Shown here piece by piece: positions 48,711 through 58,776 of a stretch of 64,000 nucleotides of DNA. The translations under genes and the position numbers were made by a program. Within the stretch, counting starts at the first letter, position 1, and each line of letters opens with the position of its first letter. The notes under the pieces are model-generated. The model saw only the letters and a program-made list of their open reading frames with translations, had not been told where the DNA came from and made no database searches. Origin of the DNA: Onishia taeanensis (GTDB lineage Bacteria; Pseudomonadota; Gammaproteobacteria; Pseudomonadales; Halomonadaceae); NCBI RefSeq assembly GCF_003268885.1, contig NZ_QLSX01000009.1, positions 62,001 through 126,000 on the forward strand, in the 5' to 3' direction.

Positions 48711-48811
48711 AACGCCACGCCCTACGAAGACGTCGCTTGCCTATTTACAAAAGTATACGACGTTCTTCACCGCATTGTTTCCACTAGATTTTCCCCTCTC
48801 CACCTGGCTGT

Positions 48812-48845
48812 AGTCGGTGCCTGGTCTGCCAGGCGCCGACTTTTT
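48812..48845 (+). terminator. Intrinsic terminator about 100 bases after the kinase-fusion gene
   Basis: A hairpin AGTCGG-T-GCCTGG/CCAGGC-G-CCGACT with a TCTG loop and one internal mismatch is followed by TTTTT on the plus strand. It closes the hemL-kinase unit and shields the matrix locus. The rest of 48711-49061 is AT-rich with two ATTTACAAA octamers (48743-48751 and 49038-49046) and no gene. Confidence 0.85.
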
Positions 48846-49061
48846 GTATCACCAATGCATCATTGGTGGTAGCAACTTAATTTATTGAATTAAATAATAA
48901 ACTGAGATTACTCCAGCGCTCTGCCATACGTTGGGTTGCAAGGATGAAACACTTTCCAAGCCAGCTGACGCCCGCTTTGTAAGGCTGTGTCGGGGTATCC
49001 TGGCCTAGCGCGATTTTATTTCCTGATACTTACAGTGATTTACAAACCGTTTCACAAGTTC

Positions 49062-49076
49062 TGGCACGCATTATGC
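49062..49076 (+). promoter_or_regulatory. Sigma-54 type promoter of the glycine-rich protein gene
   Basis: TGGCACGCATTATGC gives the -24 GG and -12 GC doublets with exactly ten bases between, and the full TGGCAC half. Only the first base of the -12 TTGC is changed (ATGC). It lies about 116 bases before the start codon. A sigma-54 activator with GAFTGA is encoded in the same locus, which supports the call. Confidence 0.65.
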
Positions 49077-49191
49077 CCTGTGAATAACGACTGCGAATGA
49101 ATGTCGCCAGCCACTGACCGCTACAGGTTCTTTGACGAGTCATGGTTCGCAGCGAGAAGCAAGGGATCATATCCAGAGTGGAGAAACGGTC

Positions 49192-50319
49192 ATGAAGAAT
49201 TATGTAATCGCAGGTACATCAATGCTAGCCCTGGTAATGGCGATTTCCGCTGCACACGCCAACCCGAGTGCAGGTGTTGCCGAGAGAGCAGACCAGACGG
49301 TTAATTCAAATGCTACGTCAGTTGGCGGCAGCAGCGGCAGCGCCAATGGGGGGGGAGGCTTTGGAATGGGCTTTGGGGGCAGCTCCTCAGGCGGTGATTC
49401 CGATAGCAGCCTGGACTTGGACGATAGGAATAACACCTCAGGTCTGAATGCCGGCGCTGGTGGTACTGGCGGTTCAGGGTCTGGCACTGGCTTGGGTGGT
49501 GCAGGTGGTACTACCGGTCGCGGTGGTGACGCTTGGTCCATGAGCGAGTCCTACAACACTTCCACCAGCGTTATCTCGCTGCAGGATATGAGTTCTTCCG
49601 TGACAGGTTCTCGTATCAATGTCACCGGTGGCCGTGGCGCAGCTGGTGGTGCTGGCGCCGTCAGCGGTGATGCGGGTGCGATTAGCCTGGGGCTGGGTGC
49701 TGGCGGTGAAGGTGGCAACGGCACCGGTGGCAAGAGTGGCTATGCCGATGCCAATGGTGGTAACGGTGCTGCTGGCGGCGATGCCGGCGGGATGGGCGTA
49801 GGCATGGGGCTAGGCGCTAGTGGCGAAGCCGAATCTGAAGCCGGCTCTGGCTCTATGGCGGGTGGTCTTGCCTCAAGCTACAACGATGAAGATATGTCTC
49901 GCAGCACCCAGACCAGCCGGTCTGACAATGGGTCCAGCTCGGGTGCGACAGCCGGGAATGCCTCTTCTGGTGACGGCACCGGTGCTGGGACTGGTTCTGG
50001 CACAGGCACCGGTGGGGCCGGCGGTAACGGCGCTGCTGCAACTGCCTCAACCGGCGGCGGCGGTGCAGGCAACGGCGGCGGCGGCGGCGGCGGCACTGGC
50101 ACTGGCGGAGCCGCAACGGCTGCTACCGGTAACGGTGGAGCTGGTGGTGCCGGCGGCGCTGGCGGAGCGGCTCTGCTGAGCACCGGCGCAGCCAACGTGA
50201 ATGTCGCGGCTGGCAACTTCGGTGGCATCGCCAACATGAACGTCTCGACCGGGATCTACAACTCCCAGCTGGCCGGGACCAACGTGGCAGCGCACAGCAA
50301 CGTCAACATCGGCAACTGA
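49192..50319 (+). CDS. Glycine-rich secreted protein, candidate fibre/matrix subunit
   Basis: A 375-residue protein that I do not recognise as a named family. A Sec signal peptide (MKNYVIAGTSMLALVMAISAAHA, cut before NPSAG) precedes a long low-complexity mature part dominated by Gly, Ala, Ser and Thr. Four Gly-rich blocks alternate with polar segments (SDSSLDLDDRNNTSG; SESYNTSTSVISLQDMSSS; SSYNDEDMSRSTQTSRSDN). The C-terminus differs: about 45 residues of NVNVAAGNF, NMNVSTGIYNSQLAGTN and SNVNIGN, a beta-prone Asn-Val pattern shared with the next gene. No cysteine. It has a sigma-54 type promoter and GGAG before the start. A structural or adhesive fibre is inferred. The unrelated longer start lies 20 codons upstream. 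Confidence 0.75.
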   Translation: MKNYVIAGTSMLALVMAISAAHANPSAGVAERADQTVNSNATSVGGSSGSANGGGGFGMGFGGSSSGGDSDSSLDLDDRNNTSGLNAGAGGTGGSGSGTGLGGAGGTTGRGGDAWSMSESYNTSTSVISLQDMSSSVTGSRINVTGGRGAAGGAGAVSGDAGAISLGLGAGGEGGNGTGGKSGYADANGGNGAAGGDAGGMGVGMGLGASGEAESEAGSGSMAGGLASSYNDEDMSRSTQTSRSDNGSSSGATAGNASSGDGTGAGTGSGTGTGGAGGNGAAATASTGGGGAGNGGGGGGGTGTGGAATAATGNGGAGGAGGAGGAALLSTGAANVNVAAGNFGGIANMNVSTGIYNSQLAGTNVAAHSNVNIGN

Positions 50320-50378
50320 GGGTTGGGTTCGACCGGCATGACGTCGGAACGAACTCCTCCTGAGCAGTAACTGATAAC

Positions 50379-50404
50379 GGCTGGCGGGGCTTGCTCCGCC
50401 AGCC
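50379..50404 (+). terminator. Intercistronic hairpin after the glycine-rich gene
   Basis: A perfect 9-bp stem GGCTGGCGG/CCGCCAGCC with an 8-base loop is not followed by a T tract. It would stabilise the upstream message or partly attenuate the downstream genes, consistent with the glycine-rich protein being made in excess. Confidence 0.5.
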
Positions 50405-50445
50405 CATTGCTCATCAAGAGTCTTCATAGCAAGGAGTGCCAGGCC

Positions 50446-50850
50446 ATGTGCGCAGTCCGTGTTTCTTTGCCTCGGTACAAAGCAATCCTCATCGGTGTTG
50501 GGCTAGTCGCTGCTACCGGTATGAGTCAATTGAGTTATGCCGACGCCTCCGCTTCATCTACCTCTACCGGCTTCGATGATAGTAATAGTCTCGGCATGGA
50601 AGAAATGCAGGAAGCAAGAGGACGGGAAGGCATTAACCTCACCAATGTACAGAGTATCCAGAACATTGATACATCGGTGGACACGACCAGTTTCAATGTC
50701 TCCGGTGATGTCGTAACAGGTAGTGTCAACATCCAGGCAGACTCCCTGAATAGTTACAGCGGTGTCGGTGTGTTCAACATCACGACGGGCAATGCCAATG
50801 CCGTGAGTGGTGCGGTCGGTATAAGTGTTTACATCGCAAACCCCCAGTGA
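50446..50850 (+). CDS. Small Sec-exported protein with shared processing-like motif
   Basis: A 134-residue protein of unknown family. The signal peptide spans about residues 1-32 (YKAILIGVGLVAATGMSQLSYA, then DAS). Residues 51-60 read MEEMQEARGR, aligning with LDDMEELRGG in the third secreted protein of the locus. After it come beta-prone stretches, including SVDTTSFNVSGDVVTGSVNI and GVFNITTGNANAVSGAVGIS. The latter matches the pattern of the C-terminus of the glycine-rich protein (N-[IV]-[ST]-T-G). AGGAG lies 9 bases before the ATG. It is probably a minor subunit, nucleator or assembly factor; this is inference. Confidence 0.7.
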   Translation: MCAVRVSLPRYKAILIGVGLVAATGMSQLSYADASASSTSTGFDDSNSLGMEEMQEARGREGINLTNVQSIQNIDTSVDTTSFNVSGDVVTGSVNIQADSLNSYSGVGVFNITTGNANAVSGAVGISVYIANPQ

Positions 50851-50899
50851 TGGTTACGCCATTGATTGGTAGCGATGATATCAAAAGGGGGAGAGTTTG

Positions 50900-51598
50900 A
50901 TGTCGATGTTTTTTCGTTCAGCAGTGATAGCTGCTTTTTTGAGTCTAGCGGCTCAACCTGTTTTGGCTGGCCCCGTAACAATTGCCAACCCCTTCGGTTC
51001 TTTCCAGGTCAAGGCTGAAAGTCTCAATGAATTACGTTGGGAGAACGTGGTACGTCAGCAGTATGACTTCAGTTGTGGTTCCGCAGCCGTCGCGACATTG
51101 CTGACCTATCATTATGAGCGCCCTACTTCCGAAGCCGAAGTTTTCGAATCGATGATTAAGCTTGGTGATGTGGATAAGATCCGCACCTATGGCTTTTCCA
51201 TGCTTGACATGAAGCAGTACTTGGATTCACAGGGTCTTAATTCTGATGGTTTCCGTGTGAAACTTGAAGATTTTATCGGGATTGGATTACCTGCCATTAC
51301 CCTGATCAATACGGGCGGATACAAGCATTTCGTGGTGATCAAGGGAATGGACGACGGTAACGTATTGGTCGGCGATCCGGCGGTTGGCACTGTGGTGGTT
51401 CCCAAGGAACATTTCGAGACGCTATGGACGGGAACCGTGCTAGGCGCTCGCGAAGACATGCTGCTGGCAAAACAGTATTTCAATAACAGTCGTGATTGGC
51501 AGGTCAGACCTGACTCGCCTCTCCAAAGAGGTATGCAGCGCTCGGCGATCGGTTCGGCCATGTTGCCGCTGCCGGGGCGCAATGAGCTGGGGCGCTAG
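50900..51598 (+). CDS. Periplasmic C39-family cysteine peptidase (FapD-like)
   Basis: A 232-residue protein with a Sec signal peptide (SAVIAAFLSLAAQPVLA, cut before GP) and a peptidase C39 fold. The catalytic triad is visible as Cys59 (YDFSCGSAAVATLL), His143 (GGYKHFVVIKG) and Asp159 (LVGDPAVG). There is no ABC transporter or membrane domain, unlike bacteriocin exporters. The closest remembered relative is FapD of the Pseudomonas functional-amyloid operon. It lies between two genes encoding proteins with a double-glycine-like motif, its likely substrates. GGGGGAG precedes the ATG. The C-terminal tail after about residue 195 is extra and proline/arginine-rich. Confidence 0.88.
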   Translation: MSMFFRSAVIAAFLSLAAQPVLAGPVTIANPFGSFQVKAESLNELRWENVVRQQYDFSCGSAAVATLLTYHYERPTSEAEVFESMIKLGDVDKIRTYGFSMLDMKQYLDSQGLNSDGFRVKLEDFIGIGLPAITLINTGGYKHFVVIKGMDDGNVLVGDPAVGTVVVPKEHFETLWTGTVLGAREDMLLAKQYFNNSRDWQVRPDSPLQRGMQRSAIGSAMLPLPGRNELGR

Positions 51599-51675
51599 TT
51601 ATCTACGATGTAACTAGCTATTAACCAGGCCCCTTACTACTGAGCAGCGGTTTATCACTACAGGAGTGGCAAACC

Positions 51676-52329
51676 ATGGAAGCGTCAAGGAGCATCAAAA
51701 AGGGGGGCTATCGCAAGTTGCATGGAAGCGCCCTGACAGCGTTGGTATTGGCAGGCCTTGTGTTAGTGCCTGCCACAGTGGAAGCAGAGAGCTTGATTCT
51801 GCGCGAGGCAACTACGTCACCGCTTGATGAAGATATCTATACGAACTCCCATGCAGACATCATCCCCTTGGATGATATGGAAGAATTGCGTGGTGGCTTC
51901 TCGATTGGCGGTGTTGATGTGGACTTCGGTGCCACCTTGCAGACCAAAATCGATGGCATGGTTCGCATGAAGACTCAATTGGCTTTTAGCCAGTCCGGCA
52001 TCAATGTCGTCTCAGAGGAAATTTCCAACCTGTCACCCAATGTCACCAGCATCAGCCCTAATGGCACGTCCGTTACTCAGGTTGCCCCAAAGACATTCAA
52101 CCTGGCAGGGCTTGCAGACTTTTCCGGGGTGGCTTTTTCGGATGCAGGCAGTTTTACGGCGGCACTTCATAATATCACACGAAATGCCATCATCAGTGCC
52201 GTTGTCAGTAATGGTTCCGGGCAGAATATATCCCAGAGTATTGATGTCAGTGTGACGTTGAGAAATGCCGAAACACTTCAAGCCTCACAGGCTCAGGCAG
52301 CGATCATGCGGTCATTCGGGCGCTTTTAA
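51676..52329 (+). CDS. Sec-exported protein with double-glycine-like cleavage motif
   Basis: A 217-residue protein of unrecognised family. A basic N-terminus and hydrophobic helix (ALTALVLAGLVLVPATVEA, cut near residue 37) form a signal peptide. A ~37-residue acidic propeptide-like stretch then ends in LDDMEELRGG (65-74), before FSIGGVDVDFGATLQTKID. This resembles the leader end recognised by C39 peptidases, but on the far side of a Sec signal. The rest is Ser/Asn/Val-rich and probably beta-structured, ending QAQAAIMRSFGRF. CAGGAG lies upstream of the ATG. It directly follows the C39 peptidase gene and ends before a bidirectional terminator. Confidence 0.7.
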   Translation: MEASRSIKKGGYRKLHGSALTALVLAGLVLVPATVEAESLILREATTSPLDEDIYTNSHADIIPLDDMEELRGGFSIGGVDVDFGATLQTKIDGMVRMKTQLAFSQSGINVVSEEISNLSPNVTSISPNGTSVTQVAPKTFNLAGLADFSGVAFSDAGSFTAALHNITRNAIISAVVSNGSGQNISQSIDVSVTLRNAETLQASQAQAAIMRSFGRF

Positions 52330-52370
52330 TATTTAGCCTTTGATGGGAACTTTCGATTTTTTATACATGA

Positions 52371-52400
52371 AAAAGGCCTTCTTTGAAGGCCTTTTCTTTT
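52371..52400. terminator. Bidirectional terminator between convergent genes
   Basis: A 10-bp stem AAAAGGCCTT/AAGGCCTTTT with a CTTTG loop. T-rich on the plus strand (TTTTCTTTTTC) and A-rich before the stem, so it serves both the plus-strand secreted-protein genes and the minus-strand barrel gene. Confidence 0.9.
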
Positions 52401-52429
52401 TCATAAACTATCATCAAACAATTAGTTTA

Positions 52430-53506
52430 TCAGAATACATCAAAACCAAAAGGAGCACGTAGCGTCAGTGTGGTATCGGGAGCATCGTCAGTGATACCGA
52501 ATTCAAGGTTCAAGCTCAGCGCGACATCGGGGTCAAGCTGGTATGACCATCCGAGTAGCATAGACCCGATGTTTAACGATGCAGCCGTCTGAGTGGTCGT
52601 AATCCCGGTATCAGGATCGGTGAACTCTGTGTCTGTTTTTCCAATAAAATCATTCTTGTAGCCTAACGTGAAGGACGACTTTTGGTTGATAGAGTAGGCC
52701 ATCCCGAAACTCAGGCGAATGGCATCACCGGGATCCACTTCACCGATGACGAAGTCCCCGATTCTTTCATTGACGTCATCCTTGATATTAAAAAGATAAC
52801 CGATGTTAGCGAAGTAGATGGCCGGGTCTGACGGAAACAGGATGGTAAGGCTGGGTTCAATAGAATGAAACCCTGAGCCTGTGGCCAGTTCACGCTCTAT
52901 ACCATCATCGGTACGATCGATCTCGAAGGGGCTCTTGCCGGTCGTTGACTTGTAGCGCAGGTTGCCGACGTAGAAAGGTCCTCCATCGAGATTACGGTTG
53001 AGCTGGTAGTGGGCAGCGACCTCGATATCACCCAAGCCATCGCCCGAGCGCGAGTTCGTCAGGTCAAAGGTGGGGTTAACCTCTGCGATGGTAGTATTAA
53101 CCGTATCCTCACGGTAGACATAGGGTACCTTGAGTTCGAGCTCCAGTCGGTTGGTCACCCCCAGGCGTCCAGTGAGCGACGTCGTCCAGGTATCCCGATC
53201 AACATCTTCGGCATTCAAGGCGCCGACCAGCAGAGTGCTGAGGATTTCGACACCGCGGAAGGTAAGTCGATTGACGCTGGAGTGTGAGTACTGGAATTCA
53301 GGCTCTAGTACAAACCGGCCTTGAGGTGTCAGTACCCCCCCTATATCGGGAATAGACTGAATTTCTGGCTGTGTTTCCTGTGCAGGAGGCGGCTGCCCTA
53401 CCTGCTCCATGCTCTGATCGTCAGATGTCTGGGCATATGAGGATCCAGCCACCATCATTGTTAACAGACTGGGTAAAACGATCACCCTTTTGGTCATCTC
53501 GTGCAT
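52430..53506 (-). CDS. Outer-membrane beta-barrel protein (FapF/MetA-pathway type)
   Basis: A 358-residue protein with a Sec signal peptide (VIVLPSLLTMMVAGSSYA, cut before QTSDD) and a short Pro/Gln-rich linker. A barrel of alternating strands follows: GRFVLEPEFQYSHSSVNRLTFRGVEI, NRLELELKVPYVYRED, GLGDIEVAAHYQL, then strands up to a C-terminal Phe (APFGFDVF), the usual outer-membrane signature. The pattern fits the PF13557-like barrels often labelled transporter; the FapF secretion pore is similar in its barrel part. The long coiled coil of FapF is missing. It may export the secreted proteins encoded convergently. GAGGGG precedes the ATG chosen. Confidence 0.75.
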   Translation of the reverse strand: MHEMTKRVIVLPSLLTMMVAGSSYAQTSDDQSMEQVGQPPPAQETQPEIQSIPDIGGVLTPQGRFVLEPEFQYSHSSVNRLTFRGVEILSTLLVGALNAEDVDRDTWTTSLTGRLGVTNRLELELKVPYVYREDTVNTTIAEVNPTFDLTNSRSGDGLGDIEVAAHYQLNRNLDGGPFYVGNLRYKSTTGKSPFEIDRTDDGIERELATGSGFHSIEPSLTILFPSDPAIYFANIGYLFNIKDDVNERIGDFVIGEVDPGDAIRLSFGMAYSINQKSSFTLGYKNDFIGKTDTEFTDPDTGITTTQTAASLNIGSMLLGWSYQLDPDVALSLNLEFGITDDAPDTTLTLRAPFGFDVF

Positions 53507-53724
53507 AGTCGTCCCCTCGCCTTTCAGCCCTTTTGACCCCAACAACGTTTTGATCGTTTGGACTCGATCATGTTGGTTTGCTCGCGTTAGGTATGATGTG
53601 CTAGCTAATGATGAATGCTTATTTTCTTACATACCCTTAGGCAAGCTTAGTTCATCTATAGCCGGCCTCAAGGAATTTACGCCGAGGATAAAAAAATTAT
53701 TGGAAATAATGAGTTATCTAACCA

Positions 53725-55161
53725 CTATAAAGAGGATAGCTTTATTATGCTGGAAGGTTCAAAGGTGGTTTTCTTGGGATGACTTCCTTCGGAAGCATGA
53801 CGAGAAAGATGATGCTTCTCCATCAAGCGATAGAGCGTTACACGGGAAACACCAAGCTCCTTGGCTGCTTTTTGCACCTTATACTTGTTTCTGACCAAAG
53901 CGGCATTGATGACTTCATGCTCGGCCATCTCGCGGGCCTTTTCCAGGGTGAGCGGCTCTCGCCAGTCATGACTGCGTCGTTCCAGCCCCAAATCTTCAGG
54001 CGCAATTAAACGATGCTCACACATCACCGTAGCGCGCCTCACACGGTTGATGAGCTCCCTGACATTGCCTGGCCACTGATATTGCTGCATCACGGCTCTG
54101 CTATCCTGACTGAAGCCACGGGCCCTGGTGCTAGCCTCACCTGAAAATTTATCGAAGAAATGGTCGGATATAAGTCCAATATCTTGGCTGCGTTCTCTCA
54201 AGGGTGGCACTGAGATATGTAGTACATTTAATCGATGATATAAATCCTCTCGGAACTTTCCTTCTTCTATTGCCTTGTTAAGATCGACATGAGTCGCCGC
54301 TAATACCCTTACATCTACTGATATTTCAGCTGTATCACCAATGCGCTGTATCTTATGATCTTCTAAAAATCGTAAAAGATTAACCTGCATTTCGAGCGGC
54401 AGGTCCCCTATTTCATCTAGGAAAAGCGTTCCTCCTTGAGTTGCCTCGATGCGTCCAATCTTGCGTTTCACCGCTCCTGTAAAGGCCCCTTTTTCATGGC
54501 CAAAAAGCTCGGATTGAATAAGGTGGGTCGGCAAGGCACCACAATTGACAGCATTGAAAGGGCCATTTCTACGTAATGAAATCTCGTGAATGCTTCTGGC
54601 TGTCAGCTCTTTCCCTGTTCCGGACTCGCCATTAATAAACACTGGAGCATCGACTGCGGCCACTTTTTTGATGTTACAAAAAAGCCCCTGCATCGAGGCT
54701 GTGTTCCCCAACATTTGTAACATGCTACCGTGCTTCATTCCCTCGCGAGGGCTTCTTCCACTATTTGATTTCCTTAACATTGACATTGTCTTGCAGCGAA
54801 CTAATGAAACGATAATGTCTTCAGTGGAATCGTGTTGCTCGTGAAAGACGAAAAGATTGCGTAATATAAACGTCTCGAGTACAGCATTATCTTCTAAAGA
54901 AGACGATCCAGATCTCAGCCATCCGACCCATTCTACATCGGGATAGGCATTGATGGACTCTTCAATCGCAGATAGCACGCCTTCATCAGAGCTGAAGATA
55001 GGTATCAGTCCGATAGGTATGTCACTTTCATCGCTCTGTGACTTGACTGCCAGCTCAGCAGATGAAATGCCTACCCAGCCCTTTTCCTTGAGAATACGAA
55101 GCTTCTCCTGAATATGTGGAGAGCATTCCTGAGGGAAAATGAAGAACTCAGGTGAGTCCAT
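53725..55161 (-). CDS. VpsR-like sigma-54-dependent transcriptional activator
   Basis: A 478-residue regulator. Residues 1 to about 140 form a receiver-like domain without obvious phospho-acceptor context, resembling that of Vibrio VpsR (KGWVGISSAELAV, DVEWVGWLRSGSSSLED, FILRNLFVFHEQ). The AAA+ domain has Walker A GESGTGKE (178-185), GAFTGA (225-230) and FLDEIGDLPLEMQ. The C-terminal Fis HTH is NKYKVQKAAKELGVSRVTLYRLMEKH. VpsR lacks GAFTGA and uses sigma-70, so this protein should instead work with sigma-54, in line with the promoter at 49062. The ATG with AGGTG upstream is preferred over a GTG three codons earlier. Confidence 0.88.
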   Translation of the reverse strand: MDSPEFFIFPQECSPHIQEKLRILKEKGWVGISSAELAVKSQSDESDIPIGLIPIFSSDEGVLSAIEESINAYPDVEWVGWLRSGSSSLEDNAVLETFILRNLFVFHEQHDSTEDIIVSLVRCKTMSMLRKSNSGRSPREGMKHGSMLQMLGNTASMQGLFCNIKKVAAVDAPVFINGESGTGKELTARSIHEISLRRNGPFNAVNCGALPTHLIQSELFGHEKGAFTGAVKRKIGRIEATQGGTLFLDEIGDLPLEMQVNLLRFLEDHKIQRIGDTAEISVDVRVLAATHVDLNKAIEEGKFREDLYHRLNVLHISVPPLRERSQDIGLISDHFFDKFSGEASTRARGFSQDSRAVMQQYQWPGNVRELINRVRRATVMCEHRLIAPEDLGLERRSHDWREPLTLEKAREMAEHEVINAALVRNKYKVQKAAKELGVSRVTLYRLMEKHHLSRHASEGSHPKKTTFEPSSIIKLSSL

Positions 55162-55217
55162 TCGATTCACCTTTATCTTTAAAAACGAAGGTAAAGCCGG
55201 CTATTTGGGGTCTTTGC

Positions 55218-55892
55218 TCAAGCGCCTTTGAGAATTTTTTTTAATGGGGCAGGGCTGGTCGCCAGGTTCTGTCGTGCCCAGTTCATTGCCTGAATACGAT
55301 TGTGGACCTTGATTTTCTTGAAAATATTGTAAAGATGCGACTTCACGGTATGTTCGCTGACAAACAGTTTGTCGGCGATATCGGTATTAGAGGCACCAGA
55401 ACTCAGCAGGCTGATGATTTCCATTTCACGGTGCGTCAGCCCGCAAACCGGGCGATACGCATTGCGCTGCTGCTGCCGGTAGAAGTTTATCAGCCGTGCC
55501 ATCAGACTACGCGACATCCAAAGGTCGCCTTCGATGAGTCGATTGATCCCCTTGCAGGTCAACAGCAAGCTATCGTTACGGTAAAAAACGCCCTGCAGGT
55601 GGAAGGCAGCCAGTAAGTCTGCAGCGTGATCCTCGTCGCGAAGGTTCAGGGCCGCGAGTACCACGGTCTCATCCTCCAGTGACAGGTTGTGCCATTGCTG
55701 AATGGCCTCTTCGGCCACATGATTCATGTCCAGCAATACGATGTTCTTGCTACTGCCCTCTGGAATGACTTGTGCATCCGGCGGCAGGGCAGTGACCGTC
55801 TCCTCCAACTGCTCATGGATATAGTTGATGAAGAGCTGAGACTGCGGGTTGCAGTCTGTGACGAGCAGGATTGAAGTGCCTGGATGATTCAT
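55218..55892 (-). CDS. CsgD/VpsT-like LuxR-family biofilm regulator
   Basis: A 224-residue protein with a pseudo-receiver domain and a LuxR HTH (LTHREMEIISLLSSGASNTDIADKLFVSEHTVKSHLYNIFKKIKV, residues 152-196). It follows CsgD/VpsT along its whole length (SILLVTDCNPQSQ, NIVLLDMNHV, QGVFYRNDS). Residues 125-128 are WMSR, fitting the W-[FLM]-[TS]-R c-di-GMP-binding motif of VpsT; CsgD has YFTQ here. GGAG is 8 bases before the ATG. It probably activates the matrix locus when c-di-GMP is high. It lies 57 bases upstream of the sigma-54 activator gene, in the same direction. Confidence 0.9.
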   Translation of the reverse strand: MNHPGTSILLVTDCNPQSQLFINYIHEQLEETVTALPPDAQVIPEGSSKNIVLLDMNHVAEEAIQQWHNLSLEDETVVLAALNLRDEDHAADLLAAFHLQGVFYRNDSLLLTCKGINRLIEGDLWMSRSLMARLINFYRQQQRNAYRPVCGLTHREMEIISLLSSGASNTDIADKLFVSEHTVKSHLYNIFKKIKVHNRIQAMNWARQNLATSPAPLKKILKGA

Positions 55893-56297
55893 GACCTGTA
55901 CTCCGGCGAAATTTTCATCATCCGATAGGATGAAGCCTCATCTGATCTAATATATAGCTGATCTTGCACCTAAGCGTTGCTTGTTCCTGCCAATTTGTAA
56001 AGTTTAGTTACAAAAAGGGCTTTTAGCTGCCGTCCAGAACGGGGATTGCGAGCCGCCATAACTGTCTTATTAATTTATATATATCAATTACTTAGTCTAT
56101 TTCATCAGGTTCAGGATGAGTCGGCTGAAGCGTAACGCTGAGTTGATTTCCATAATGTAACTGATTGTGGATTTTTTTGGATTAGTGCTTTTCGATGGCT
56201 TTCATAATCTTCTCTGCCTATCCCCCTTCTCCGGCACTGGATGTCACTGGCGTAGCCAGGGGCGTAAAATGGTGGCATTTCCCTAGCAGGAGCCGAA
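55893..56297. other. AT-rich regulatory gap between the LuxR regulator and rdgB
   Basis: No credible gene. It is clearly AT-rich (for example TTAATTTATATATATCAATTAC near 56068-56090) against GC-rich neighbours and marks the right edge of the matrix locus. It contains the inverted repeat at 55994-56014. A reading frame on the minus strand near its right end looks spurious. Confidence 0.7.
55994..56014. promoter_or_regulatory. Inverted repeat TTTGTAA-N7-TTACAAA upstream of the LuxR regulator
   Basis: A perfect 7-bp dyad with a 7-base spacer about 100 bases before the regulator start. The TTACAAA half-site recurs twice upstream of the glycine-rich gene, so it may be an operator of one of the locus regulators. 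Confidence 0.4.
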
Positions 56298-58063: not shown

Positions 58064-58104
58064 CCCAAGGTGACGAGCTCGTGACCCCAAGGAGTGTGAA
58101 CCGC

Positions 58105-58776
58105 ATGACCAAATACTTCCGCCTTGCCCTGCCGCTGGCTGCTGCCCTGACGCTTGCCGCCTGCACGACTACCAATCCCAACACCGGTGAAACCCAACGC
58201 AGCAAGACAGGTACCGGTGCCGCCATCGGTGCTGCCGTCGGTGCCATGGCAGGTATGGTCAGTGGCAGTGGTGGTTCCAGCAGCCGTGACCGTGCGTTGA
58301 TCGGTGCTGCGGTGGGCGCCGCTGCCGGTGGTGGTATCGGCGCCTACATGGATCGCCAGGAAACACAGCTGCGCGAGAGCATGCAGGGAACCGGTATCGG
58401 CGTGGAACGCCAGGGTGACAACATCATCCTCAACATGCCGAGCAGCGTGACCTTCGCCTTCGATTCCAGCGACCTTACACCTGCAGCACGCTCTGCCCTG
58501 AATGATGTCTCGAACGTGCTGCAGCAGTACCCGGAGACGCGCGTCAACATTGCCGGCCACACCGACAGCACGGGGGCTGATGACTACAATCAGCGCCTGT
58601 CCGAGCGGCGTGCCTCGGCGGTGGGCAACTACCTGTCTCAAACCGGTGTCGCCGGCATGCGCCTGTCGATGACCGGCTATGGGGAAAACCAGCCTATCGC
58701 CAGCAATGACACCGAAGAGGGTCGTGCCCAGAACCGTCGGGTCGAAATCACCCTGACCCCGATGCAACAGCAGTAA
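58105..58776 (+). CDS. OmpA-family lipoprotein (YiaD-like)
   Basis: A 223-residue outer-membrane lipoprotein. The lipobox is LTLAAC near residue 20. A glycine-zipper region follows (GAAIGAAVGAMAGMV, IGAAVGAAAGGGIGAYMD), then an OmpA peptidoglycan-binding domain (TFAFDSSDLTPAARSAL, VNIAGHTDSTGADDYNQRLSERRASAV, GRAQNRRVEITLTP). AAGGAG lies upstream of the ATG. It is monocistronic with its own terminator. Confidence 0.94.
   Translation: MTKYFRLALPLAAALTLAACTTTNPNTGETQRSKTGTGAAIGAAVGAMAGMVSGSGGSSSRDRALIGAAVGAAAGGGIGAYMDRQETQLRESMQGTGIGVERQGDNIILNMPSSVTFAFDSSDLTPAARSALNDVSNVLQQYPETRVNIAGHTDSTGADDYNQRLSERRASAVGNYLSQTGVAGMRLSMTGYGENQPIASNDTEEGRAQNRRVEITLTPMQQQ

Follow-up and report, generated by a model that had tools for sequence, protein, structure and literature searches.

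A putative Fap-type secretion locus in Onishia taeanensis and a candidate leader for FapD-family peptidases

What do the seven genes that lie between a hemL-side kinase gene and rdgB in the halomonad Onishia taeanensis build, and are they a new kind of system or a known one in unfamiliar form? The locus occupies positions 48,711–56,297 of a 64,000-nucleotide stretch of contig NZ_QLSX01000009.1 (positions 62,001–126,000, assembly GCF_003268885.1), and this whole stretch is called the window here. An initial annotation, made from the sequence without database searches, saw in it a candidate new extracellular fibre or biofilm-matrix system under cyclic di-GMP (c-di-GMP)-type control, assembled from parts reminiscent of Fap, curli and Vibrio matrix regulation. 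We recovered all seven genes at or very near the places given to them in that reading, and a secreted fibre or matrix set comprising substrate, peptidase, pore and control remains the best interpretation; yet the block is probably a system for Fap-type secretion and assembly that belongs to a distinct sister clade, acting by the mechanism proposed below, and not a new kind of mixed parts. This assignment follows from a C39 peptidase whose clade adjoins FapD, a FapF-like pore, FapB-type repeats and a leader-bearing protein, S2, in the FapE place.

Four genes, for GlyR, S1, the C39 peptidase and S2, are on the + strand, and those for an outer-membrane barrel, a sigma-54-dependent activator and a CsgD/VpsT-like regulator are convergent to them on the − strand. 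All four + strand proteins have Sec-type N-termini, called by visual inspection and a simple rule on hydrophobicity, without a signal-peptide program. GlyR (49192–50319, +; 375 amino acids (aa), 112 of them glycine) is the glycine-rich low-complexity protein singled out at the outset and the proposed main matrix subunit. S1 (50446–50850, +; 134 aa) combines a leader motif with one repeat, and S2 (51676–52329, +; 217 aa) carries a double-glycine leader.

Peptidase, pore, repeats and their conservation

The peptidase (50900–51598, +; 232 aa) matches Pfam C39 above its cut-off (E 4e-22) and NCBIfam FapD at E 4e-40, with 138 bits, far below the curated cut-off of 330; its match to FilB (E 7e-37, 127 bits) is likewise far below the curated cut-off of that model. 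In the PDB it matches C39 domains of bacteriocin-type transporters. A midpoint-rooted tree of 135 C39 domains, in which the bootstrap had not fully settled and some long branches are unsure, unites 97 rows and one truncated row (L032) in a clade that we call group A (support 100/99), adjoined by 24 Fap rows (99/91; join 97/85), while six rows scored as Fap (L036, L037, L130, L132, L135 and L158) fall outside both clades. The window peptidase, homologous to FapD, sits beside, not inside, the Fap clade.

The FapF/MetA-type identification of the barrel (52430–53509, −; 359 aa) is borne out from several sides. It matches NCBIfam FapF at E 6e-45 (154 bits, cut-off not reached) and the Pfam MetA-type family above cut-off (E 1e-5). 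FapF chains were the sole PDB sequence matches of the barrel profile at E ≤ 0.01 (best 2e-61), and the top Foldseek match of the barrel model (mean predicted local distance difference test, pLDDT, 83) was again FapF (template-modelling score 0.67/0.81).

Pfam and NCBIfam scans of the window proteins gave no match of GlyR, S1 or S2 to Fap or Csg subunit models, and GlyR had no match of any kind in these databases up to E 1; the stated lack of Fap and Csg subunits holds in this sense, but S1 and GlyR do contain FapB-type repeats. A hidden Markov model, irA, was trained exclusively on the C-termini of S1 and GlyR from relatives in the clade, same-genus ones among them. It places one imperfect repeat at the C-terminus of window S1 (residues 91–133; 50716–50844, +; E 1e-13) and one at that of GlyR (residues 331–373; 50182–50310, +; E 8e-12), and recovers its own families (91/93 S1 and 85/91 GlyR, training rows included). 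At Fap-type loci it also matches 24 open reading frames (ORFs) in the FapB position, 198–267 aa long, two to three times each (best E 2e-11), and it matches nothing in a shuffled ORF set. One of the 24, at L035, matches the NCBIfam FapB model (E 3e-25, which does not reach the curated cut-off); for the other 23 the name FapB follows from their place and size. The 56 matches that fall outside the known slots are all encoded on the same strand as a C39 gene, no more than 5 kb away from it, in loci that extend only some 5–10 kb from that gene, and a 77-aa ORF at L032, group A by the tree, is matched as well. That this profile finds FapB-position ORFs argues for a Fap-type system and no new class, and overturns the view that the substrates are unlike known amyloids.

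Direct profile–profile alignment gave fainter signals: with hhalign the Fap repeat scored 15.9 against the S1 C-terminus (shuffled maximum 15.7) and a still weaker 11.8 against that of GlyR, equalled by one of 100 shuffles. We regard the irA test as the stronger evidence that the repeats are probably alike. The window S1 and GlyR have one repeat each where Fap has three, and two or more occur in only 4/91 proteins of the GlyR set. Judged from these sequences, then, the block appears to be a divergent Fap-type system that usually has one repeat per subunit. Syntenic GlyR homologues occur at related loci, with long chains that range from glycine-rich to Ser/Asn/Asp-rich. A FapE model found no match in the window's genome; a FapC model was silent there too, but so were its controls, and the absence of FapC is therefore not proven.

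Large subunits with many repeats occur elsewhere. Those at L141 and L145 carry four repeats each and may bridge one-repeat and many-repeat forms, and 2427-aa ORFs at L088 (175–7458) and L089 (165–7448) contain 19 and 17 Fap-like repeat matches, respectively, some of them weak in L088. The L088 locus, from an Alphaproteobacteria bin, is nearly the same as that of L089, from an 'Anaerolineae' bin, and L089 is probably a misbinned contig.

The gene set has been kept near hemL and rdgB in five genomes of the same genus and five from four other genera, as a search for the same set in other genomes revealed. Variations include an additional second sigma-54 activator (L027, L028, L030, L031), a missing kinase match (L028), inserted Fap genes (L029) and, at L030, rdgB and hemN outside the fetched stretch. 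Among the best 80 of 556 loci from a species-genome scan (L039–L118), GlyR, S1, C39, S2 and the barrel are complete at 30/30 top-ranked loci (L039–L068; hand count) from Halomonas, Aidingimonas, Litchfieldella, Vreelandella, Billgrantia, Marinobacter and Modicisalibacter, and the block is therefore no chance assemblage. The barrel is present at 75/80 (hand count), including 45 of the 50 lower-ranked loci (L069–L118), where the Halomonas-built profiles found S1, S2 and GlyR in only part.

At the level of genomes, 93/275 of the family have some C39 match. By hand count, 64/275 have the cassette-type peptidase (E 3e-72 or better), 39/275 the Fap type and 16 both, and in Aidingimonas a Fap-type peptidase shares the locus with the block. 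The cassette type occurs in 15/369 sampled genomes of the class (E 1.5e-63 or better) and in 16/398 of a phylum sample (at least 168 bits) in which the window's own order is heavily represented; among the relatives named are Thioalkalivibrio, Ectothiorhodospira, Photobacterium, Thauera, Aromatoleum and Alphaproteobacteria. In one genome (L029 and L047) Fap genes lie between the block and the CsgD-like regulator within the same locus; at the group A locus L032 (6386–7834) the C39 and barrel frames are short (183 and 162 aa) and perhaps decayed; and another genome (G341) carries seven C39 matches that belong to a more distant type.

A leader common to S1, S2 and FapE

Known C39 substrates present a helix with hydrophobic residues at −12, −7 and −4, followed by a double-glycine-type site, as described in work on LahT and ComA (PMC10885120). 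The processing-like motif noticed earlier in two Sec-type proteins of the block is real and follows this rule, with glycine at −2. In S1 it is LGMEEMQEARGR (residues 49–60; 50590–50625, +), with L49, M54 and A57 followed by R, G and R60; in S2 it is IPLDDMEELRGG (residues 63–74; 51862–51897, +), with I63, M68 and L71 followed by R, G and G74. In 32 chosen S2 proteins R72 and G74 are the sole invariant columns besides M1, with G73, G79 and G85 nearly so. Cleavage by the C39 peptidase is predicted after R60 in S1 and after G74 in S2.

For counting, the leader was defined as the three hydrophobic positions followed by RG-G/R/K soon after the Sec signal, in a strict and a loose form. The strict form occurs in 70/87 proteins of the S2 slot, in 21/28 of the FapE slot (21/22 within the Fap clade of the tree) and in 34/93 of the S1 slot, where 80/93 have the loose form; counting distinct proteins only, the strict values are 64/81 for S2, 20/27 for FapE and 30/87 for S1. 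Among far Sec-like ORFs, used as controls, it was found in 16/1367 (loose, 166/1367), among opposite-strand ORFs in 10/985, among shuffled S2 sequences in 40/4350 and, in the slot that precedes Fap-type C39 genes, in 1/26. The helix rule was also assessed on sites anchored by R-[GA]-[GRK] alone, taking the first site per family protein and all sites in controls. Hydrophobic residues then occupy −12, −7 and −4 in 100, 100 and 81% of 74 S2 sites, 100, 91 and 77% of 22 FapE sites and 93, 91 and 54% of 56 S1 sites, as against 42, 41 and 33% of 408 control sites. The residue before the predicted cut (P1), for which the anchor admits only G, R and K, is G at all 74 S2 sites, R at 36, G at 11 and K at 9 of the S1 sites, and R at 17, K at 4 and G at 1 of the FapE sites. 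These slot and helix-rule tests replaced a position-weight matrix from 21 FapE motifs, under which only 27/90 S2 and 8/101 S1 proteins came above threshold, because the matrix was too narrow and its controls held true family members.

The FapE protein at L159, which scores above its NCBIfam cut-off, has the same leader, ending in RGKY, with a predicted cut near residue 40; a second such leader was not found on that strand, and fapA was not identified there. Peptides from about the first 70 residues of FapE were reported missing (PMC5557850), which is compatible with the predicted cut and not specific to it. The leader also appears on FapA-position proteins, named by place and size and not counted systematically, at ten Fap loci within the family to which the window belongs; one genome contributes two of these loci. 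In a structural model of S2 the strands start at residue 75, with high confidence from about 80, which would put the predicted cut just ahead of the folded part. S1, S2 and FapE thus appear to share, after their Sec signals, a C39 double-glycine-type leader that is described here as new.

In one Halomonas/Vreelandella clade (L045, L049, L051–L053, L055–L058) the glycine at leader position P2 is replaced by alanine in both S1 and S2. This paired change is suggestive; we did not use it as evidence because of a counter-example at L063 and a mismatch in Ectothiorhodospiraceae, in both of which it affects S1 only.

Weighing the readings

Several results tell against a Fap-type system with leader-bearing substrates. 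Arginine or lysine at P1 differs from the GG, GA and GS of known C39 substrates; the strict motif is missing from 17/87 ORFs in the S2 slot; and 15/102 group A C39 genes, excluded from those 87, have no Sec-like ORF in that slot. Seven pairs among the 102 group A rows have identical or almost identical peptidases, and many of the other rows are closely related. The short helix of the S2 model that precedes the predicted cut (residues 65–71) has low confidence (pLDDT about 54), and a fold search of the PDB with S2 gave no match at E ≤ 0.001. The S2–FapE profile match stands at 91% when the leader is included, although this motif was the basis on which both sets had been selected; when it is left out the figure is 15% (longer comparison) or 2%, still above all shuffles. 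Only one of the 26 slot proteins that precede Fap-type C39 genes, proteins that by position are mostly FapC, is matched by the irA profile, and a reciprocal FapC-repeat model matches no group A protein. The pore model shows no coiled coil or helix after the signal, in a region of low confidence, whereas the coiled coil and plug of FapF are described as critical in Fap (Rouse 2017, PMC5557850), and the same account, finding peptides throughout FapA, takes this protein as not processed.

The closest competitor of a sister system would be an ordinary Fap operon whose sequences have simply drifted out of reach of current models. FapD and FapF profile matches, the FapB-type repeats and S2 at the FapE place with its leader would all fit, and these, together with the Sec signal on the peptidase, are what the block has in common with the Pseudomonas fapABCDEF system. 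Drift alone is nevertheless unlikely: the peptidase belongs to a separate clade, and a Fap-type C39 exists as well in 16 of the 64 family genomes that have the cassette type; S1 and GlyR of the window have one repeat each and subunits of the block usually do, as opposed to three in Fap; and the pore is convergent to the other genes and has no predicted coiled coil. The block also differs from the Pseudomonas system in its Gly-rich or Ser/Asn/Asp-rich main protein, in the RG-G of S2 where FapE mostly has RG-R/K, and in its linked sigma-54 and VpsT-like regulators. The Acinetobacter Fil putative pilus system also pairs a C39 peptidase with a barrel, and the peptidase scores almost equally against FilB and FapD, but the barrel is much nearer to FapF (154 bits, as against 82 for FilC) and no other Fil model, those of the subunits included, matches GlyR, S1 or S2 up to E 1, which makes membership in Fil extremely improbable.

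S1 and S2 might instead be peptide toxins or signals freed by C39 cleavage, as in bacteriocin or microcin export, since a C39 domain and a double-glycine leader are typical of many exporters of bacteriocins and of ribosomally synthesized and post-translationally modified peptides. Indeed, the C39 domain and the hydrophobic −12, −7 and −4 residues with glycine at −2 are those of peptidase-containing ATP-binding cassette (ABC) transporters. The block differs from these in that P1 can be Arg or Lys, that its peptidase is free-standing, with a Sec-type signal of its own and no ABC transporter domain match in a Pfam search, and that Sec-type signals precede the leaders of its substrates; the last two points, with a FapF-like pore, FapB-type repeats in S1 and a large conserved low-complexity partner, GlyR, make this explanation very unlikely.

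For the Fap-type sister system that we prefer, the following mechanism can be envisaged, in which cleavage, gating, fibre formation and the response to c-di-GMP are steps that we infer. A rise in c-di-GMP would be sensed by the VpsT-like regulator which, together with the sigma-54 activator, would turn on the + strand genes from a −24/−12 element. Sec would carry GlyR, S1, S2 and the peptidase across the inner membrane, and in the periplasm the peptidase would recognize the amphipathic leader of S1 and S2 and cut behind RG-R or RG-G, releasing the S2 domain and the repeat of S1; such processing would license export through the FapF-like pore. Outside the cell, the C-terminal FapB-type repeats of S1 and GlyR may act as nuclei and stack on one another, with the result that the glycine-rich chains assemble into a fibre or a fringe of matrix.

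A broader proposal, which we hold only slightly more probable than its opposite, joins several claims. FapD-family proteins would be periplasmic double-glycine-leader peptidases, acting on FapE or S2 in most systems and, in many, on S1 or on the protein in the FapA position; the leader that follows the Sec signal would be a lock, and its removal would license amyloid export; and at least two lineages would use one machine, namely, the known three-repeat Fap and a widespread, mostly one-repeat lineage whose long low-complexity chains would be anchored through just one amyloid repeat.

Regulation, surroundings and significance

A −24/−12-like element (TGGCACG-N4-ATGC; 49062–49077, +) precedes GlyR in the window, and such an element is found 5′ of GlyR at 30/33 chosen loci, window included. 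It lies at −130 to −162 in 11/11 cases in the window and L022–L031 and is more scattered elsewhere, where gene starts are uncertain. Because shuffled sequences of single loci yield it at rates of 4.5–29.5%, its support comes from its recurrence. The sigma-54 activator (53725–55170, −) is where the initial annotation had put it, with GAFTGA kept there and in 71/93 related activators, and no receiver-domain match in Pfam; the genome encodes RpoN. The CsgD/VpsT-like LuxR-type regulator (55218–55892, −) was also correctly recognized: its VpsT-like REC domain scores above the Pfam cut-off, while the NCBIfam CsgD model stays below its own. Like VpsT/CsgD regulators it couples this domain to LuxR-type DNA binding and has WMSR (55509–55520, −), which fits the c-di-GMP-binding motif of VpsT, tabulated as W[F/L/M][T/S]R (PMC10333796); it differs from them in its link to Fap-type genes, and c-di-GMP binding is predicted here from the motif. 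WMSR recurs in 27/28 regulator rows, with WISR in the remaining one, and the genome has 34 GGDEF matches. The proposed c-di-GMP-type control gains from this recurrence, and it is motifs that point to both sigma-54 and c-di-GMP as possible controls.

The block is AT-richer than its surroundings, as first noted: its GC content is about 46–58% for the most part (46–50% over much of the block, about 64% within a part of GlyR) and about 58–66% nearby. Recent transfer as its source was rejected because the place of the block is common to the genus and family. A terminator-like hairpin (52370–52400; minimum free energy −17.6 kcal/mol, z −3.7 for 52345–52420) divides the convergent units. Further along, 3′ of hemN, an OmpA-like glycine-zipper lipoprotein can be read by eye from the translation (58081–58776), and a CsgG-domain protein is encoded at another site of the genome (G000:C1:478226–478861).

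Fap is a model biofilm amyloid, and the target of its essential protease has long been puzzling. FapD and FapF were recognized as belonging to larger families (2013, PMC3792158). The catalytic cysteine of FapD was reported as needed and its target as unclear (2017, PMC5557850); its substrate was then described as yet to be determined, with fapD–fapF pairs in five further phyla (2018, PMC6173800), and another report of that year speaks of roles yet to be determined (PMC6173795). Later accounts draw FapD as a modifier of FapC in a docking study (2023, PMC10638192) or present Fap as fixed with three repeats and FapD as thought to process FapE and FapF (2025, PMC12822426). Among the matches listed in searches of the open-access literature we found no description of the sister system or of the leader, although one may exist elsewhere. 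As the substrate of FapD was called undetermined in 2017–2018, the leader offers a testable site. The main value of the sister-family comparison is thus one conserved leader and a residue-exact hypothesis for the cut site of the FapD family. The comparison further points to a Fap-type secretion that is broader and more diverse than the invariable operon with three repeats portrayed in 2025, and the low-complexity Gly-rich or Ser/Asn/Asp-rich chains could serve as useful matrix materials.

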